From NCBI GenBank assembly GCA_007692755.1, contig REBL01000256.1, positions 1 through 64,000 of the forward strand: a stretch of 64,000 bases of DNA. Direction: 5' to 3'. Source of the stretch: Nodularia sp. (in: cyanobacteria) (GTDB lineage Bacteria > Cyanobacteriota > Cyanobacteriia > Cyanobacteriales > Nostocaceae). The notes under the pieces were generated by a model. The model saw only the letters and a program-made list of their open reading frames with translations. It searched no databases and was not told the DNA's origin. The position numbers and the translations under genes were made by a program. Positions 46,058 through 56,787 of this stretch are shown here, one piece after another (the stretch's first letter is position 1; each line of letters opens with the position of its first letter).

Positions 46058-46375
46058 ATGACAGATAAGCGCAAGCCAACCTATGACCTTGAAGCATTTA
46101 AAGCTGTTGCAGGTACTTTGAATGGACTCAATGCGACCGGCAGTGCCATTAAGGGAGCTGCAAGCATAGGATTTGGACGAGCAGAAATTGTAGCGACTAT
46201 TCAAACAATGAAAAAGTCACATTTTTACAAGTCAATGACAAGCTATGCCAATCATCGCATCTGGCAGGATGTGTACCATGTTCCATCAGAGATTGGAGTT
46301 CTATATATCAAATTTACAGCAGATGTAATGACAGAGTTTCTGTTGCTATCATTCAAGGAGAAGGATAATGACTGA
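46058..46375 (+). CDS. mqsR: MqsR-family toxin
   Basis: 105 residues, the RelE-fold mRNA interferase family (KPTYDLEAFKAVAG, FGRAEIVATIQTMKKSHFYKSMTSYANHRIWQDVYHV, LYIKFTADVMTEFLLLSFKEK). MqsR cuts mRNA at GC-containing sites in E. coli. The gene comes before its antitoxin, the reverse of most pairs, and overlaps it by eight bases. Confidence 0.88.
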   Translation: MTDKRKPTYDLEAFKAVAGTLNGLNATGSAIKGAASIGFGRAEIVATIQTMKKSHFYKSMTSYANHRIWQDVYHVPSEIGVLYIKFTADVMTEFLLLSFKEKDND

Positions 46376-46793
46376 CATCACACCACTTTGCCCAGTGACT
46401 GGAGCTTCCATGCGCCGCGATGTACGTCCTATGACGTTGACCTATCGCACGCAGACTATTACATTTGATATGCCTGGGTGGTATTGTGATCAGTCGGACG
46501 AGAGTATCCATACAAGTGAAGATATGAAGGTATCTGACCGGATGCTGAACCTTTTGAAAGCGCGGGTTGATGGTTTACTGGAACCGCAGGAAATTCGCCG
46601 TGTCCGTAAAAAGTTGAAACTAACACAGATTCAAGCAGGACAACTGATTGGCGGTGGAAAACGAGCATTTCAAAAATACGAGGCTGGGGACTTATTGCCT
46701 AGTCGCGGCATTACCAGTGCGCTTATACTACTTGATCATGACCCATCTGCCATTGCTATCCTCAAGAACGGGCAGGACAATTCCAAGACGTAA
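46368..46793 (+). CDS. mqsA: MqsA-family antitoxin, zinc ligands partly lost
   Basis: 141 residues. The N-terminal toxin-binding part keeps only two of the four Cys expected for the MqsA zinc site (Cys8 in CPVTG and Cys40 in WYCDQSDES). The C-terminal HTH (EIRRVRKKLKLTQIQAGQLIGGGKRAFQKYEAGDLLPS) is complete and should bind the operator. Overlap with mqsR gives coupled translation. Confidence 0.88.
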   Translation: MTDITPLCPVTGASMRRDVRPMTLTYRTQTITFDMPGWYCDQSDESIHTSEDMKVSDRMLNLLKARVDGLLEPQEIRRVRKKLKLTQIQAGQLIGGGKRAFQKYEAGDLLPSRGITSALILLDHDPSAIAILKNGQDNSKT

Positions 46794-48537: not shown

Positions 48538-48644
48538 ATCTCTGGGCATTAGCTTGTGCCAGTTGAAAAACTGTCCCATATTACACTTGTATTTTGAGCA
48601 AACAGCAATAATATCTACTTGTGTGTGAGGAGCAAGTTAAAAAT

Positions 48645-48691
48645 AAAAAGCGTTTGGGGTGGAAACACGGCAACACTCCCAGGCGCTTTTT
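48645..48691 (+). terminator. Terminator after purH
   Basis: A long stem from AAAAAGCGTTTGGGGTG to CACTCCCAGGCGCTTTTT, with an 11-base loop, ending in T's. Confidence 0.75.
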
Positions 48692-48716
48692 AATTATAAA
48701 ATAATTGCATTTCCAC

Positions 48717-50218: not shown

Positions 50219-50815
50219 TTATACAGAATTGGGATAAGACTCAGAACTTACCTGTAGTTGGCTAGTACTATTTAGTTTAATAAAACTATCAAAAGCATAC
50301 CAAGCCAACACATACCAAGGAATAATTTCCAGTTGCAAACCCTTAACCATAACTTGTCTCACAGCCAAGATACTCAATCCTAGAGGAAAAAGAAAGCGCA
50401 AATCAACTTCACCACTTGTCGCCTGCTCAAATCGTTTATTTAAGTTGACGATTGTGCTTTTCATATCTTCTGCTGCTTCCGAGTTACCCTCAGTAATGTC
50501 AGCAAAAGTCACCCCTAAATCTAGTAATGTAGTCAGCACATTTTCCAAGGTGGTATCTTGACCATCATGGTTGATGATTATACTACCGTGACTAATATTG
50601 GTTCGTACCTGATTTATATAAGATTGCGCCTTGAGGACATTAGCAATGCGTTGTATTTCTTTAGGATGACGATGAGCTTGAGAAATTCTCAACCTTAGTC
50701 TTCCGGGAGTATCACTAATGATTTTAGTCGATATAGGTTTAGGTGTGGTTTTGAAGCTGGCTTGATCAATAACTTTGGCTATCTTTGTCAGATTGCCATG
50801 ACTATTTGTTAACAC
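50219..50815 (-). CDS. HMA_2-type domain protein with membrane segment
   Basis: 198 residues from a GTG, chosen because GGGAGG lies eight bases upstream. The central domain (TKIISDTPGRLRLRISQAHRHPKEIQRIANVLKAQSYINQVRTN) has the fold pattern of heavy-metal-associated domains, but an arginine-rich PGRLRLR replaces the CxxC loop. A helical part (NLNKRFEQATSGEVDLRFL) and one or two membrane segments (FLFPLGLSILAVRQVMVKGL, IIPWYVLAWYAFDSFI) follow. Last gene of the HMA_2/P-type ATPase cluster. Confidence 0.75.
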   Translation of the reverse strand: MLTNSHGNLTKIAKVIDQASFKTTPKPISTKIISDTPGRLRLRISQAHRHPKEIQRIANVLKAQSYINQVRTNISHGSIIINHDGQDTTLENVLTTLLDLGVTFADITEGNSEAAEDMKSTIVNLNKRFEQATSGEVDLRFLFPLGLSILAVRQVMVKGLQLEIIPWYVLAWYAFDSFIKLNSTSQLQVSSESYPNSV

Positions 50816-51039
50816 ACAGTAGCCCTCCCTAATTATATTTTTGCTCGTAGTCAGGACTTTAGTCCTCTCATGACTTACGCTAGATGAGCAAATAATCAAC
50901 CACAAATGAGGGCGTTTCTGAAACCAAGTATGAATGTCTCTACAGGGGTTTTGACATCATCAACAATCCTGTTCATACTGCAAATCAGCAACGCCCAAAT
51001 GAGAATTTCACAAAATTCCAGCGTTAGTCTTGTTTAATT

Positions 51040-51057
51040 TGAGGACTAAAGTCCTCA
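51040..51057. repeat. Hairpin TGAGGACT-AA-AGTCCTCA
   Basis: A perfect palindrome with a two-base loop after the DUF5132 gene. A related AGGACT-TT-AGTCCT palindrome lies near 50851-50864, flanking the same gap. Confidence 0.65.
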
Positions 51058-51067
51058 CTACAAACTG

Positions 51068-51367
51068 CTAAACACCATGTTCAACTGTGTTGTCAGCAGA
51101 TGCTTCAAATTCTGGTGTTTCTCTATCTTCAGCAATTTCAGCTTTGGCTTCGGCAATAATGTCTTCCCAGGTTTCGCCCATTTCTGCAAATGCACCTCGG
51201 CTTTTTTCGTAGGCGACCATTCCACCTTTGACTAGTGACTTGGCTATGGGTTTACCAATTCCCGCGACTACAGGAATGAGAACTGGTGCTAATAGTACAG
51301 CCCCTATGCCGGCGATGATTCCAGGAGCGCCAGCATCTTCAACAAAATCAGTAATTTTAGGTGCCAT
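51068..51367 (-). CDS. DUF5132 glycine-rich membrane protein
   Basis: 99 residues. A glycine/proline-rich hydrophobic stretch (GAPGIIAGIGAVLLAPVLIPVVAGIGKPIAK, about 13-44) is followed by LVKGGMVAYEKSRGAFAEMGETWEDIIAEAKAEIAED, a charged amphipathic helix. The pattern matches the DUF5132 family, often encoded with HMA_2 proteins. Glycine-zipper helices suggest packing in or remodelling of membranes. It sits between the ATPase gene (83 bases) and the HMA_2 gene. Confidence 0.8.
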   Translation of the reverse strand: MAPKITDFVEDAGAPGIIAGIGAVLLAPVLIPVVAGIGKPIAKSLVKGGMVAYEKSRGAFAEMGETWEDIIAEAKAEIAEDRETPEFEASADNTVEHGV

Positions 51368-51450
51368 AATTAATTAACTCTATTAGATGTAAGTAAGCTT
51401 TTTAGCGTAATCTATTTCAGATTATGATCTCATCTTTCTGATGGTAGAAT

Positions 51451-53724
51451 TTAATTTGACGCAGGTTTCAACATAGGGCGTAAACCGTTTACTCCGGCAA
51501 TGATGGTAGAACCATTGTTGATTACAGTCGCTGCTAAAGGGTTAAGACCAAATAAAACCGCGATCGCCATTGCTGCTAAGTTAGGAATAACCACAATGTT
51601 GGTGTTTTGCTGTATTAGTTGCTTTGTGTGACGCGCGATCGCGATCGCCTGTAGTAAACTATGTAAATCATTCTGCATTAACACCACGTCTGCTGTCTCA
51701 CGGGCAATTTCGGAACCATCACCAAAGGACACTGACACATCAGCGTAGGCTAAAGCTGGCGAATCATTAATCCCATCACCGACAAATGCCACTGTCTTAC
51801 CTTGTTCATGCAGTTGACTGACAATTGCGGCTTTTTCTGCGGGAAAAGCTTCGGCGTGAGTATGAGTTGGGGGAATACCTAAATCAGCAGCTACAGCATC
51901 AGCTGTGCGCCTGTTATCTCCGGTGAGCAGATGCACTTCCACGCCTTCAACTGTCAACAAGCTGTTAATTACTTCTCGACTTTCTGGGCGCAAAACATCG
52001 CTATATTTAATAATACCTTGGAGTTGACCGTTGCTCGCGACATAAATCACCGAACTTGTTGATTTTTGTGTTCCATTCAGCGATTCCAGATTAATGCCTT
52101 GCTGACGCAAAAAGCGATCGCTACCTACATAAACAATCTCGCCCTCAATCTCGGCTTGAACCCCTAAACCAAGTTCATAGTTCCACTGACTGCGGCTAGG
52201 AATTTCCACTTCCTGGGCTTGGGCGTAGCGAATTATCGCCTCGGCGACTGGGTGTGTCAAACGCTGTTCCGCCGCCGCCGCTAGTGCTAAAACTCGCAAG
52301 TTGGAAAGGTGGGGATTCCGACTTTCTACATCAATTACAGTGACTTCGCCCTTTGTGAGCGTGCCTGTTTTATCAAAAACAATGGTATCAACTGCTGCTA
52401 GTTGTTCTAAAGCTCTACCACTACGAATGAGAATACCTTGGCGGGCGGCGTAAGAAAGTGCAGCTAAAACTGATGTGGGAATAGATACGCGAATCCCTGT
52501 ACATAAATCCAGGGCGAGAATGCTGGCTACTCTGGCTGGGTTGCGTGTTACGGCAAATACTGCCCCACCCATTAACAATGTTGGCATTACCGCTTGTTCC
52601 GCAATTTTAATCGCCTGGTTTTCCATGCGGGTATCATGGACTGGGGCGGCTTGGATTAACTGAATACTCTGTCCAGCACGAGTGTTATTACCTACCCGCT
52701 CTGCTAAAATATAAACTCGTCCTTCCCGGACTAAAGTGGAAGCAAAAACAGCTTGTCCTTGATTTTTTAAGACTGGTATAGACTCGCCTGTGAGTTTCTG
52801 TTCATCAAATAAGGCTTTACCCCGGAGGATTTTGCCATCAATGGGGACTTGTTCACCAGGATAGACAATGACTATATCGCCTCTTTGCACATCTTGGATG
52901 GGAATTTGCAGCTTTTCCCCATTGCGTTCTACCCAGGCAAATTGTCCCAGAGAATTGAGTAAATCCAGGGTTTGCATTTGCGAAGATCGGGCAGTGCGAT
53001 CGCGGATATTTTCCCCAATTTCAATTAAACTCAACATCAGGGCTGGTGTGAGAAATCGACCTTGGAATGTGGTGATGGCGATCGCGACCAAATCCAAAAA
53101 ATCAATATTCAGTTTTCGCTGTGTGACAATCCCTGACAGCGCTCTTTGAAACACGGGAAATGTCGCTATGGCAATGCTTCCCACTACCATCATTGGCGGT
53201 ATGGGTAATCCTAAACCCCCTTGTAGGACAGCTAAACCGGTAGCCACCACAGAAAACTGCATCCCCGGCCAAGAATCACTTTTTGCTAGTGCAGACGATG
53301 GCTTTTGAGCATCTGTGATCACTATTCCGGCTTGACTCGCCGCAAATATTAAACAGCTTAAACGCGATCGCATTTTGGTATCGGTAACTGCACCCGATTG
53401 ATAATTAACCAGCAGTGAAGCCGCCGCAGACTTGATCCTCACATCTGTAACTAAAGGATCTGATCTCAGTAAAGTTTGCAGACGCTCGGCATAATCTGCA
53501 TCATAGCGTAACCGAGGCACGCGTAACCGCACTCTTCCCCGAATTGCATGTATAACACTGAAGGAAACTTTGGGAATCTGCCTGTGGAAGTGTCTATTAG
53601 TTTTCACTACCTCTACAGTCTTTTCATACTGTGGCGCTAAAGGAACTTCTCCATTTTTTTCCTCTACAGTCTCTTGAAATGTTTCCACTGAAGGCGAAGC
53701 TATTTGAACGGTAACTTGTGTCAT
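51451..53724 (-). CDS. P1B-like metal-transporting ATPase with HMA_2 domain
   Basis: 757 residues. An HMA_2 domain (about 53-118; HAIRGRVRLRVPRL at 59-72, no CxxC) comes first. The ATPase core has TGES (312-315), DKTGT with phospho-Asp451, HP (491-492), TGDN (601-604) and GDGIND (649-654), so all catalytic motifs are intact. The membrane metal motif is not CPC, SPC or TPC but DLCTGIRVSIPTS (406-418). This and the Arg-rich N-terminus resemble the P1B-6 ATPases such as FezB, tied to iron storage in ferrosomes. The metal is not proven by sequence. Confidence 0.88.
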   Translation of the reverse strand: MTQVTVQIASPSVETFQETVEEKNGEVPLAPQYEKTVEVVKTNRHFHRQIPKVSFSVIHAIRGRVRLRVPRLRYDADYAERLQTLLRSDPLVTDVRIKSAAASLLVNYQSGAVTDTKMRSRLSCLIFAASQAGIVITDAQKPSSALAKSDSWPGMQFSVVATGLAVLQGGLGLPIPPMMVVGSIAIATFPVFQRALSGIVTQRKLNIDFLDLVAIAITTFQGRFLTPALMLSLIEIGENIRDRTARSSQMQTLDLLNSLGQFAWVERNGEKLQIPIQDVQRGDIVIVYPGEQVPIDGKILRGKALFDEQKLTGESIPVLKNQGQAVFASTLVREGRVYILAERVGNNTRAGQSIQLIQAAPVHDTRMENQAIKIAEQAVMPTLLMGGAVFAVTRNPARVASILALDLCTGIRVSIPTSVLAALSYAARQGILIRSGRALEQLAAVDTIVFDKTGTLTKGEVTVIDVESRNPHLSNLRVLALAAAAEQRLTHPVAEAIIRYAQAQEVEIPSRSQWNYELGLGVQAEIEGEIVYVGSDRFLRQQGINLESLNGTQKSTSSVIYVASNGQLQGIIKYSDVLRPESREVINSLLTVEGVEVHLLTGDNRRTADAVAADLGIPPTHTHAEAFPAEKAAIVSQLHEQGKTVAFVGDGINDSPALAYADVSVSFGDGSEIARETADVVLMQNDLHSLLQAIAIARHTKQLIQQNTNIVVIPNLAAMAIAVLFGLNPLAATVINNGSTIIAGVNGLRPMLKPASN

Positions 53725-53916
53725 TCCTTCTCACTTAAGGTTGATCAACTTATTAGACATCTGGGAAAAATTAAATGTGCTTTTTCTAGAACCCTTGTAG
53801 AGACGTTCCATGAAATGTCTCTACTTTTTCACCAGATGTCTATTGATTAACGGTGAAATTAGGTAGCTGATTGCAGATTCGCGCTGATGTGATATTTTTA
53901 GGTTTTTTATTGGCAT

Positions 53917-54873
53917 CTATAACGATAATTTCGCCATATAATCCAGAGAAAAAGACATCCCTGGACATTTCATATCAGCCCATAAGCGGGATACATTTTG
54001 GTGAATAACTTCAGTTGATTGACTAGAAACTTGGACATGAGTTTCCCCAGCCAATTCCATCAGACTCACCCAATGAGTTACAGCTACTGTAACAGGTTGA
54101 TAGGCGATCGCAATTGATGCAGCATCATAATTTACCCGCACGTTCACCACTTGGGGATCTGCCTTCAATAACCTTTCCAGTCGCCGCCCATAGGCGCTAT
54201 CTTGAGCGAGTCGAGGTAAATGAAACCTGATTCTTCCAGGTATGGCATGAACCACAGTATATGCAAAGTTAGAATCATCAGATAACGGCGTTGCCAGAGA
54301 TGGGGCAGCTTTTACTACATCTGAGCGCGGAAATTTGGGTTCCAGATAGTCAATTACCCTACGAGTGGCATCTGCGGTAATCATATACACTGGAATCGCT
54401 GCCAAACCACTGATGCCCAATCCTCCCGTCACCGCCAACCCTGTCATCAAGGGAATAAACGAAATAGATTGCTCTTGCCAAAAATCAGCAGATTTCCAGG
54501 CTGCGAAGGCATCTACATTGCTAACTGGGATTTGTTCAATGTCGAACTCTTGAAGTATGCCCAACATTTGCGGTATTGACAGTAAATTGTCATCAAATGT
54601 GACTACCAGACTACCTGTTTGCTGATTGACACAAACTGCTCTCACTCCTTTGTACTGCCGTAAATCTTGGGATATAATCTCTAGTCTTGGGTGAAAACTA
54701 GCGTCAGTAGCGCGGATGCGGATGCGCCCGTTCATTGCATGAACAATTTGTAATCCGCCAGAGGAAACTTCCACTTGTGGCTGTGCAACTTCTGGGCTGG
54801 TATTTTGATTCACATTGACTTCATCAGTGTGAAGTTGCGGTTTCCACCCGCGACTACTGTTATTTCTGTCCAT
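53917..54873 (-). CDS. Protein with two HMA_2-type domains
   Basis: 318 residues. Domain one (about 41-110; IVHAMNGRIRIRATDASFHPRL) and domain two (about 207-275; TVVHAIPGRIRFHLPRLAQDSAYGRRLERLLKADPQVVNVRVN) both have the Arg-rich loop and lack CxxC. Between them lies a Gly-rich hydrophobic segment (about 135-170, FIPLMTGLAVTGGLGISGLAAIPVYMI). The second domain is close in sequence to that of the ATPase downstream (192 bases), suggesting duplication. First gene of the cluster. Confidence 0.8.
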   Translation of the reverse strand: MDRNNSSRGWKPQLHTDEVNVNQNTSPEVAQPQVEVSSGGLQIVHAMNGRIRIRATDASFHPRLEIISQDLRQYKGVRAVCVNQQTGSLVVTFDDNLLSIPQMLGILQEFDIEQIPVSNVDAFAAWKSADFWQEQSISFIPLMTGLAVTGGLGISGLAAIPVYMITADATRRVIDYLEPKFPRSDVVKAAPSLATPLSDDSNFAYTVVHAIPGRIRFHLPRLAQDSAYGRRLERLLKADPQVVNVRVNYDAASIAIAYQPVTVAVTHWVSLMELAGETHVQVSSQSTEVIHQNVSRLWADMKCPGMSFSLDYMAKLSL

Positions 54874-54968: not shown

Positions 54969-55502
54969 TTATGTATGATTAATTACAGTTTTCTGGTATT
55001 CATCCTCACTCATCATGTCAAAAGAGTTCTCAACACGGTCTACAAACAGCACACCATCGAGATGATCATACTCGTGTTGAAAGATCCGAGCCACAAAATC
55101 AGTTAATTTTTGCTTTTGTAACTGGCCGTGGCGGTCAGTATACGCAACCTCAACGGCTTGATATCTTGGCACTAAACCTCTAATACCAGGAACACTTAGA
55201 CAACCTTCCCAACCTTGAACAATTTCAGTAGAATGAGCAATTATTCTGGGATTGATCATGGCAGTAGGCTCCATCACCGGAGCGTGAGGATACCTCAGAT
55301 TAGGACGGGAAGCGACAATAAATAAACGACAGGATGCGGCTACTTGAGGTGCAGCAATGCCCACACCATTAGCCTGGGCAACTGTTACAATTAAGTCGTC
55401 AATTAGCTTTTGAATGTATTCATCTTGAGTATTATCAACCCAAGTTGCTTTTTGGCGCAGTATAGGAGCGCCCAATTGCATGATTGCCATTAATTCCGGC
55501 AT
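54969..55502 (-). CDS. def: Peptide deformylase
   Basis: 177 residues. The three motifs are GVGIAAPQ (46-53), EGCLSVPG with metal ligand Cys101, and HEYDHLDG with His143, Glu144 and His147. It removes the formyl group from nascent proteins. It starts 10 bases after the protease gene on the same strand. Confidence 0.96.
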   Translation of the reverse strand: MPELMAIMQLGAPILRQKATWVDNTQDEYIQKLIDDLIVTVAQANGVGIAAPQVAASCRLFIVASRPNLRYPHAPVMEPTAMINPRIIAHSTEIVQGWEGCLSVPGIRGLVPRYQAVEVAYTDRHGQLQKQKLTDFVARIFQHEYDHLDGVLFVDRVENSFDMMSEDEYQKTVINHT

Positions 55503-55512
55503 GATCAGGAAC

Positions 55513-56787
55513 TTAACCTTGTGTTCGTGCGGGTAAAGGTGCAGGACTAACTGCTACTGATATAACTTGCCCATTGCGTTCCACTTGTATTTGTAAAGGG
55601 ATACCAATTTGGCTTTTTTCTACCAGTTTTTGTACTTCTTCAATTTTAGTCACCGGTTGGTTATTAATCCTTTGAATCAAATCACCAGATTTTAGTCCAG
55701 CCACAGATGCGGGAGAGCGAGGTACAATATCAACCAATAAAACACCCTCATCAGCTGTGAAATTCAGGCGATTGCGTGAATCTTTATTGATTGTTGCTTT
55801 CACTTCTGGGGTCAAGGTGATCATTTGAATACCTAAGTAAGGATGATCGACCCTACCTTTAGTAATTAATTCCTGAGAAATTCTTTGTACAGTGTTAATG
55901 GGAATGGCAAACCCTAACCCTTGAGCGCCTTGAATAATTGCTGTGTTCATCCCAATTACCTGACCACGGGAATTGAGTAATGGCCCGCCAGAGTTACCAG
56001 GGTTAATAGCTGCATCCGTTTGAATATAATCGACGCGCTTGTCACTCACCCCAATTTCACTACTAGAACGCCCCGTAGCGCTGAGTATCCCAGAGGTAAC
56101 GGTATTATTCAACCCTAATGGATTACCAATGGCAATTACCGCTTCTCCTGGTTGCAAGGTATCAGAGTCACCGATGGATAAAATTGGCAGATTATTCGCT
56201 TCGATTTCAATTAAAGCTACATCTGTCACCGGGTCTTCACCCAACACTATACCATCAAAAGTCCTGCCATCCTTGAGGGTAACAGTTACAGAATCAGCAC
56301 CGTCTACAACATGGGAATTAGTCAAAATTTGACCAGAGGAATTAATAATAAATCCAGAGCCGCTACCCCGCTCTATTCGCTCTGTAGGCTGTGATAGTCC
56401 TGAATTACCACCAAACCGCCGCAGAAATGGACTGGTTGGGACGTTGCGAGATTGTACTGTTCTGGACGCATCAATCCGAACTACGGCATCTCCGACTTTT
56501 TGTACAACTGCGACGACAAAGTTAGGATCTGTACTAGATGAGGCGGTAATTGCTGGGGGAGTCAGAGCCGGACTGTTATTATTTGTATTTTGAGTCGCAA
56601 CCTGAGACTGAGGATCATTTCCTTGATTCTCAAAGGTTCTGGCTGATAGAAACGAGCAGCCGCCAAGGGACACCACGGCTACCCCACTCAGTAGCATCAA
56701 CTTGATTATACGGTTTGATTCTCTCCAGTGGGGCAAACCCCAGGCATCAATTTTTGGGACTTTCAAGTTATGCTCTGTTTTTTTCAT
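55513..56787 (-). CDS. HtrA/Deg-family serine protease with PDZ domain
   Basis: 424 residues. The N-terminal hydrophobic segment (about 27-44) ends in LGGC, a possible lipobox. The trypsin-like domain carries His159 (TNSHV), Asp189 (VTDVAL) and Ser266 (GNSGGP). One PDZ domain (about 320-415) ends the protein. Cyanobacteria have HtrA, HhoA and HhoB in periplasmic protein quality control; which this is cannot be decided. Same strand as def. Confidence 0.93.
   Translation of the reverse strand: MKKTEHNLKVPKIDAWGLPHWRESNRIIKLMLLSGVAVVSLGGCSFLSARTFENQGNDPQSQVATQNTNNNSPALTPPAITASSSTDPNFVVAVVQKVGDAVVRIDASRTVQSRNVPTSPFLRRFGGNSGLSQPTERIERGSGSGFIINSSGQILTNSHVVDGADSVTVTLKDGRTFDGIVLGEDPVTDVALIEIEANNLPILSIGDSDTLQPGEAVIAIGNPLGLNNTVTSGILSATGRSSSEIGVSDKRVDYIQTDAAINPGNSGGPLLNSRGQVIGMNTAIIQGAQGLGFAIPINTVQRISQELITKGRVDHPYLGIQMITLTPEVKATINKDSRNRLNFTADEGVLLVDIVPRSPASVAGLKSGDLIQRINNQPVTKIEEVQKLVEKSQIGIPLQIQVERNGQVISVAVSPAPLPARTQG

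Follow-up and report, generated by a model that had tools for sequence, protein, structure and literature searches.

Does a cyanobacterium encode a relative of the ferrosome (Fez) systems? The question is raised by four minus-strand genes in a 64,000-nucleotide stretch of a Nodularia contig (hereafter the window, meaning that whole stretch), which a preliminary description had read as a candidate ferrosome-like locus, composed in the same manner as the clusters that build membrane-bound iron stores. The open reading frame list and Pfam uphold its account of the genes, their order and their families. The first gene encodes a double HMA_2 protein (53917-54873, 318 aa; HMA_2 in two stretches, 60.5 bits), the second a P1B-6-like P-type ATPase (51451-53724, 757 aa; E1-E2_ATPase and Hydrolase domains with an N-terminal HMA_2 at 31.7 bits, against a cut-off of 30), the third a DUF5132 protein (51068-51367, 99 aa, 64.9 bits), and the fourth an HMA_2 protein with a membrane part (50219-50905, 228 aa from a TTG codon; 52.1 bits over nearly the whole model), so that the HMA_2 model (PF19991) exceeds the Pfam cut-off in three of the four proteins. 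The TTG start of the last is probably too early and the true start later, because 12 of 13 HMA_2 membrane proteins of relatives are 178-202 aa as called, the remaining one (L054) being 292 aa. The four genes follow, on the same strand, a peptide deformylase gene (def) and a gene for an HtrA-like protease (54969-56787, minus strand, identified by Pfam), a conserved flank that lies outside the system and adjoins the same genes in relatives; the double HMA_2 gene lies 95 bp downstream of def. Between this gene and that of the ATPase is a 28-bp near-perfect palindrome (53797-53824), with one match within the window at up to three mismatches.

To assess conservation, we sampled the stretches around 40 chosen DUF5132 and 20 chosen HMA_2 matches, together with three contigs of the window genome, and laid out 44 loci with mechanically called open reading frames. 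The window-type pair of DUF5132 and HMA_2 membrane-protein genes is found in 14 of these 44 loci; the complete four-part order is present in 10 of the 14 (three of them with an extra HMA_2 gene inside), and the ATPase is kept in the cluster in 11. At one locus (L061) the pump is present and the double HMA_2 gene is absent at that place, and the same genome (G040) has a two-repeat HMA_2 gene by def elsewhere (L097). Three pump-less window-type loci (L057, L059 and L064) retain the DUF5132 and HMA_2 genes at the def/HtrA site, and their genomes have no HMA_2 P1B pump elsewhere among the matches listed. Neighbour clustering grouped def in 11 of the loci examined, all 11 with genes of this system. 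Of 244 cyanobacterial genomes, 42 have HMA_2 and 38 have DUF5132, the latter without exception being genomes that also have HMA_2; among 128 Nostocaceae genomes each family occurs in 93, with both in 91 and only one in four, counting HMA_2 among the matches listed. The arrangement is not a product of chance, because the pair recurs in 14 loci, 10 of them with the complete order, and the DUF5132 genomes of the cyanobacterial sample all carry HMA_2, and the conserved neighbourhood on which the preliminary description had made its proposal depend is indeed present in relatives. No match at E <= 0.01 came from plasmids when the HMA_2 membrane protein and the DUF5132 protein were used as queries. 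A plasmid of Gloeothece verrucosa (L111, 10590-12677) carries a DUF5132 gene near that of a 522-aa P1B-pump-like HMA_2 protein, which is without the DKTGT phosphorylation motif.

The window genome contains three further HMA_2 loci. One (L012) has an ATPase gene behind a porin-like gene, and in another (L014) a small DUF5132-like protein precedes an ATPase that has two HMA_2-like repeats. In the third (L013, 1187-4862 of contig C247), a P2-type (Ca/Mg-like) ATPase, with a weak, sub-threshold N-terminal HMA_2 match, is adjacent to a DUF5132-HMA_2 fusion protein; the same pair is found at L079, and at L088 such an ATPase stands beside a separate DUF5132. These pairings imply that the helper kit extends beyond P1B pumps.

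What kind of pump, then, does the window encode? Its ATPase has an N-terminal HMA_2 domain with GRVRLR, a fourth transmembrane segment (TM4) reading LDLCTGIRVSIPT in place of CPC or SPC, and a sixth (TM6) reading INNGST...NGLRP. We surveyed 35 P1B-type ATPases with HMA_2 from cyanobacteria. CPC, SPC and CPH are absent from TM4 in every one of them, and the segment reads LD[FLV], one variable residue and [TS]G, with threonine or serine at the position of the FezB-type cysteine. TM6 is readable in 33 of them, with HN in 16, NN in 15 (including the window) and another form in 2, two more being cut before TM6; the window subclade has NN, not HN. A genome-wide scan, from which the best 80 of at least 588 matches were retained, gave diverse P-type pumps, 19 of which we call FezB-type; they combine D[FY]xC in TM4 with HN in TM6, and the TM4 cysteine is present in 19 of 19. 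This group was identified by motif, partner genes and neighbours, no characterised FezB sequence being among the rows. The name was given in part because a Mailhella locus (L179) has a small protein, a pump and an HMA_2 membrane protein in a row, Mailhella being one of the Desulfovibrionaceae, the family that includes Desulfovibrio magneticus. It was given also because TM6 HN and DUF6110 partners are traits of P1B6-ATPases in passages of PMC9374683.

In a first tree, drawn with midpoint rooting, the relation among the cyanobacterial, FezB-type and other groups stayed a three-way split, and KdpB was therefore added as an outgroup. In the resulting rooted tree, built from 58 of the 108 earlier rows and 4 KdpB sequences, the window clade comprises 14 cyanobacterial, Deinococcus and Chloroflexi rows (support 100/100) and is sister to 14 FezB-type P1B-6 rows (99/97), the sister relation itself being supported at 100/99.5. 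The next branch consists of four CtpC-like pumps with CPC (96/83), and 26 other P1B rows lie outside. The pump of G072 (locus L054) groups with that of the window at 100/99. The window ATPase thus lies outside the FezB-type clade itself, and both the TM4 cysteine and the TM6 histidine are absent from it. A copper or zinc pump is ruled out by the tree position together with the lack of CPC, SPC or CPH in TM4; a firm place in such a clade, which the preliminary description had named as refuting its proposal, is thus not seen. The Cd-type label that NCBIfam gives to the window ATPase is nonspecific, because its cut-off is also passed by each of the three FezB-type pumps to which the model was applied. 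The absence of the TM4 cysteine is the most interesting departure from the Fez-like kit, as it implies a different transport site in a kit otherwise of that type.

The small DUF5132 protein of the window has a Gly-rich hydrophobic stretch followed by a charged helix with ETWEDIIAEAKAE. By eye, a small protein that likewise combines a Gly-rich hydrophobic stretch with an acidic helix adjoins 17 of the 19 FezB-type pumps; none was seen among the open reading frames read at the other two loci (L124 and L127). In Pfam, the small protein of L116 is a DUF6110 member (1e-37), that of L179 matches DUF6110 (4e-7) and, weakly, DUF5132 (0.035) over overlapping residues, and that of L119 matches DUF5132 (0.077) and not DUF6110. 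The two families are tied in Pfam only through L179 and, weakly, L119; neither the window protein nor ten proteins scanned gave a direct link of DUF5132 to DUF6110 or DUF1490, and the window protein matches neither of the latter. In HHalign, a profile of 38 DUF5132 proteins reached 95.9% against two delta-type sequences, 93.7% against a Deinococcus/Chloroflexi pair, 54.1% against three proteobacterial-type proteins and just 12.4% against the Firmicutes and archaeal set. We also scored candidates against decoys, of which 4 of 85 were set aside as belonging to such systems (L122, two in L114, and L123). The proteins of L131, L115, L179, L112 and L119 have scores of 28-41; the highest value is 17.4 among the 81 true decoys and 21.7 among block shuffles. 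Of 20 candidates, 16 exceed the best true decoy, and those of L148, L140, L138 and L141 do not. Across 24 members the signature retains E65 and D69 without exception and A72, E73 and A74 in at least 90%. The profile comparison, decoy scores and shared signature lead us to conclude that DUF5132 and the FezA-like, DUF6110-type proteins are related, the identity of the DUF6110-type protein with FezA being inferred from gene order. The window protein resembles the DUF6110 proteins found with P1B6 ATPases in its ExxxDxxAEA helix after a Gly-rich hydrophobic stretch, but it has no DUF6110 match, and the relation runs through intermediates and profiles only.

The HMA_2 proteins carry GRxRxR at the place where metal-binding HMA domains have CxxC. 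In the double HMA_2 protein, each half has a GRIR motif (GRIRIR and GRIRFH) and the HMA_2 parts are without CxxC; the HMA_2 membrane protein carries PGRLRLR in its HMA-like domain, after which come hydrophobic helices with IPWYVLAWYAFDSFIKL at their end. The predicted structure of the latter (mean pLDDT 66.6, a moderate value) places the HMA-like domain at about residues 58-134, ahead of helices of lower confidence. Its PDB matches are weak, none at E <= 0.001; RNA polymerase L-type subunits come first, and below them are metallochaperone domains, including CsoZ and Menkes-type domains. Among 17 aligned HMA_2 membrane proteins, no histidine of the membrane part is conserved: the best such column, just after the last helix, has histidine in 7 of 17 and asparagine in the window, and two commoner columns (11 of 17) lie inside the HMA_2 domain. 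Hence we see no haem site like that of FezC, which passages of PMC11334425 describe as a haem cytochrome.

Set beside Fez, the window locus shares a pump that is sister to the FezB-type P1B-6 pumps, both with an N-terminal GRxR HMA_2-like domain, a small DUF6110-like membrane protein, a further HMA_2 membrane protein, and FeoA/FeoB neighbours in loci related to it. It differs in that the TM4 cysteine is replaced by threonine and TM6 reads NN, FezC-like haem histidines are lacking, the double HMA_2 protein is extra, and the pump is missing in some relatives. Judged on the TM4 replacement, the TM6 motif and the lack of haem histidines, the locus is not Fez itself. The composition claimed in the preliminary description is supported by the sister relation of the pump, by its small partner and by the HMA_2 proteins common to both kinds of locus; identity with Fez fails at the TM4 cysteine and the haem histidines. 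The titles and abstract openings of the literature covered, which did not extend to the two founding ferrosome papers, hold no description of this locus or of a cyanobacterial ferrosome.

Evidence on the metal comes mainly from neighbours. Neighbour clustering placed FeoA in nine loci, and in G072 (L054) the genes for FeoA, FeoB (both confirmed by Pfam), the double HMA_2 protein, ATPase, DUF5132 and HMA_2 membrane protein follow one another on one strand, with no other open reading frame of at least 60 aa called between these genes. FezB-type loci of Firmicutes likewise have iron neighbours: FeoA and FeoB (L116), FeoA and Fur (L121), and FeoA (L138). We compared FeoA with ZnuA, the single control family, in 40 cyanobacterial genomes of 27 genera, leaving out G144 and G222 because their HMA_2 matches lie in CPC-type pumps; distances here and below were measured start to start, and genome sizes were rounded. 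FeoA was picked after it had already been seen among the neighbours; 14 of the 40 genomes, from 10 of the 27 genera, have it no more than 5 kb from an HMA_2 or DUF5132 match (0.35 genomes expected), a count reached in none of 20000 random-placement simulations. ZnuA lies as close in 3 of 40 genomes, all of one genus of the 27 (expected 0.57; as high in 337 of 20000 simulations), so the control is itself somewhat above chance. At 10 kb the counts are 14 for FeoA (expected 0.66) and 4 for ZnuA (expected 1.07) in the same 40 genomes. In genus g49, HMA_2 matches lie 4-5 kb from ZnuA in all three genomes; the one read (L102, 7761-9614) belongs to a pump-like protein of 617 aa, which has an E1-E2_ATPase domain and no Hydrolase match. 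Tree position and FeoA linkage, as against the ZnuA control, make iron the best-supported candidate substrate of the wider family.

This linkage is carried mostly by the HN-type sister loci, and the window-type gene order is seldom beside FeoA. Indeed, FeoA is within 10 kb of DUF5132 in just 2 of the 93 Nostocaceae genomes with DUF5132, 72 of which have FeoA; a FeoA match is present in 101 of the 128 genomes of the family sample and in none of the five sampled genomes of the window's genus g1 (G000, G193, G244, G245 and G246). In Clostridioides difficile, FezA and FezB are required for ferrosomes and are Fur-repressed, according to passages of the review PMC12574912. Our scan of 102 upstream stretches for Fur boxes, at up to three mismatches, gave 5 against about 3.8 expected from a crude shuffle of two-letter blocks, with no clear excess. 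The iron link proposed in the preliminary description thus finds support in other members of the family, which stand beside FeoA and FeoB, and seldom in the window's syntenic type, which is rarely near FeoA; the Fur-box scan adds no clear excess. Overall, the ferrosome-like interpretation is partly supported.

To account for these observations, we propose, with middling confidence, that the locus encodes a Fez-like platform for the sequestration of ferrous iron and represents a branch in cyanobacteria that is sister to the Fez and P1B-6 systems. Its ATPase would most likely carry Fe(II) from the cytosol by way of a site whose ligands are hard or polar (the TM4 Asp/Thr and the TM6 Asn-Asn) and do not include cysteine. 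The DUF5132 protein, being FezA-like, would pack through its Gly-rich helix, its ExxxDxxAEA helix holding the pump in a membrane patch, and the HMA_2 proteins, with their Arg-rich GRxRxR motifs and no metal-binding CxxC, would serve as adaptors on the cytosolic face. Computation establishes the order of the genes, their family ties, the place in the tree, the altered motifs and the linkage of the wider family to FeoA/FeoB; iron as the substrate of this particular pump, the direction of transport and the assembly of a patch are what we infer. A further step, in which the patch would bud into a closed iron-storing vesicle, is plausible, though we hold it only tentatively.

A Fez-like build also describes the PacL/CtpC efflux platforms of actinobacteria (DUF1490), and sequence alone does not decide between a vesicle and an efflux platform. 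In such a platform, which we consider rather unlikely here, DUF5132 would cluster and stabilise a plasma-membrane pump by which surplus Zn, Cd, Mn or Fe leaves the cell, and there would be no storage compartment. Passages of PMC9374683 and PMC13043812 describe PacL1 as a small protein that spans the membrane, has Glu/Ala repeats and conserved glycines, stabilises CtpC, an HN-type P1B pump, and forms membrane foci; CtpC-like HN pumps form the next branch of our tree, and one of them (L144) is next to a DUF1490 protein. The likeness has limits, as the systems of those passages have CPC in TM4, which none of the 35 cyanobacterial pumps has, a metal-binding motif on the PacL tail, and zinc or cadmium as substrates, and HMA_2 adaptor genes do not appear in those passages. 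DUF5132 lacks a His-rich metal-binding tail (at least 2 His in the last 25 residues in 1 of 38 proteins), and the match of DUF5132 to one PacL-like protein is weak in HHalign (2.6%), though its score of 18.6 is just above that of the best true decoy (17.4); a relation between DUF5132 and PacL is suggestive at most. The clearest metal linkage found, moreover, is to Feo.

Alternatively, the pump may serve a hard divalent ion other than iron (Mn, Mg or Ca), the HMA_2 and DUF5132 proteins being general helpers of P-type ATPases; this would also fit a TM4 that lacks a CPC-type cysteine motif. The window genome's own pairing of a DUF5132-HMA_2 fusion with a P2-type ATPase (L013) points the same way, as do the proximity of ZnuA to the pump-like HMA_2 protein in genus g49 and a Deinococcus pump about 6 kb from genes for a metal-dependent regulator and a metal ABC transporter. 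We nevertheless judge this explanation unlikely, as Feo linkage within 5 kb extends over 10 of 27 genera against one of 27 for ZnuA, and the sister FezB-type pumps are in some cases beside iron genes. That HMA_2 and DUF5132 form a membrane scaffold with a main role independent of the pump appears very improbable: the three loci that retain both without an ATPase, in genomes with no other HMA_2 P1B pump among the matches listed, and the Gloeothece DUF5132 near a pump-like protein without DKTGT are in its favour, but the pump is kept in 11 of 14 window-type loci.

In cyanobacteria, iron storage is discussed with reference to ferritin-type proteins. If the iron-sequestration reading is true, cyanobacteria would have a second, membrane-based route of iron storage, which would bear on nitrogen fixation and on growth under iron limitation. 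In its widest and distinctly speculative form, the proposal is that many Nostocaceae maintain a lipid-bounded iron store, separate from ferritins and built with HMA_2 adaptors, DUF5132 as the scaffold and a P1B-6 pump whose TM4 lacks the cysteine motif, and that FezA (DUF6110), PacL (DUF1490) and DUF5132 belong to one superfamily of pump-clustering proteins. The locus also links DUF5132 with DUF6110, and perhaps with DUF1490, in one role beside metal pumps, offers a sharp test of the need for the TM4 cysteine in P1B-6-like pumps, and makes testable the idea that membrane-bound iron stores occur in photosynthetic bacteria too.

Two other features were observed in the window: an MqsR/MqsA toxin-antitoxin pair at 46058-46793 (Pfam, 102 and 79 bits), and a Cyano-1 RNA (RF01701, 56.5 bits) at 48619-48694, upstream of a glucose/sorbosone dehydrogenase-like gene.
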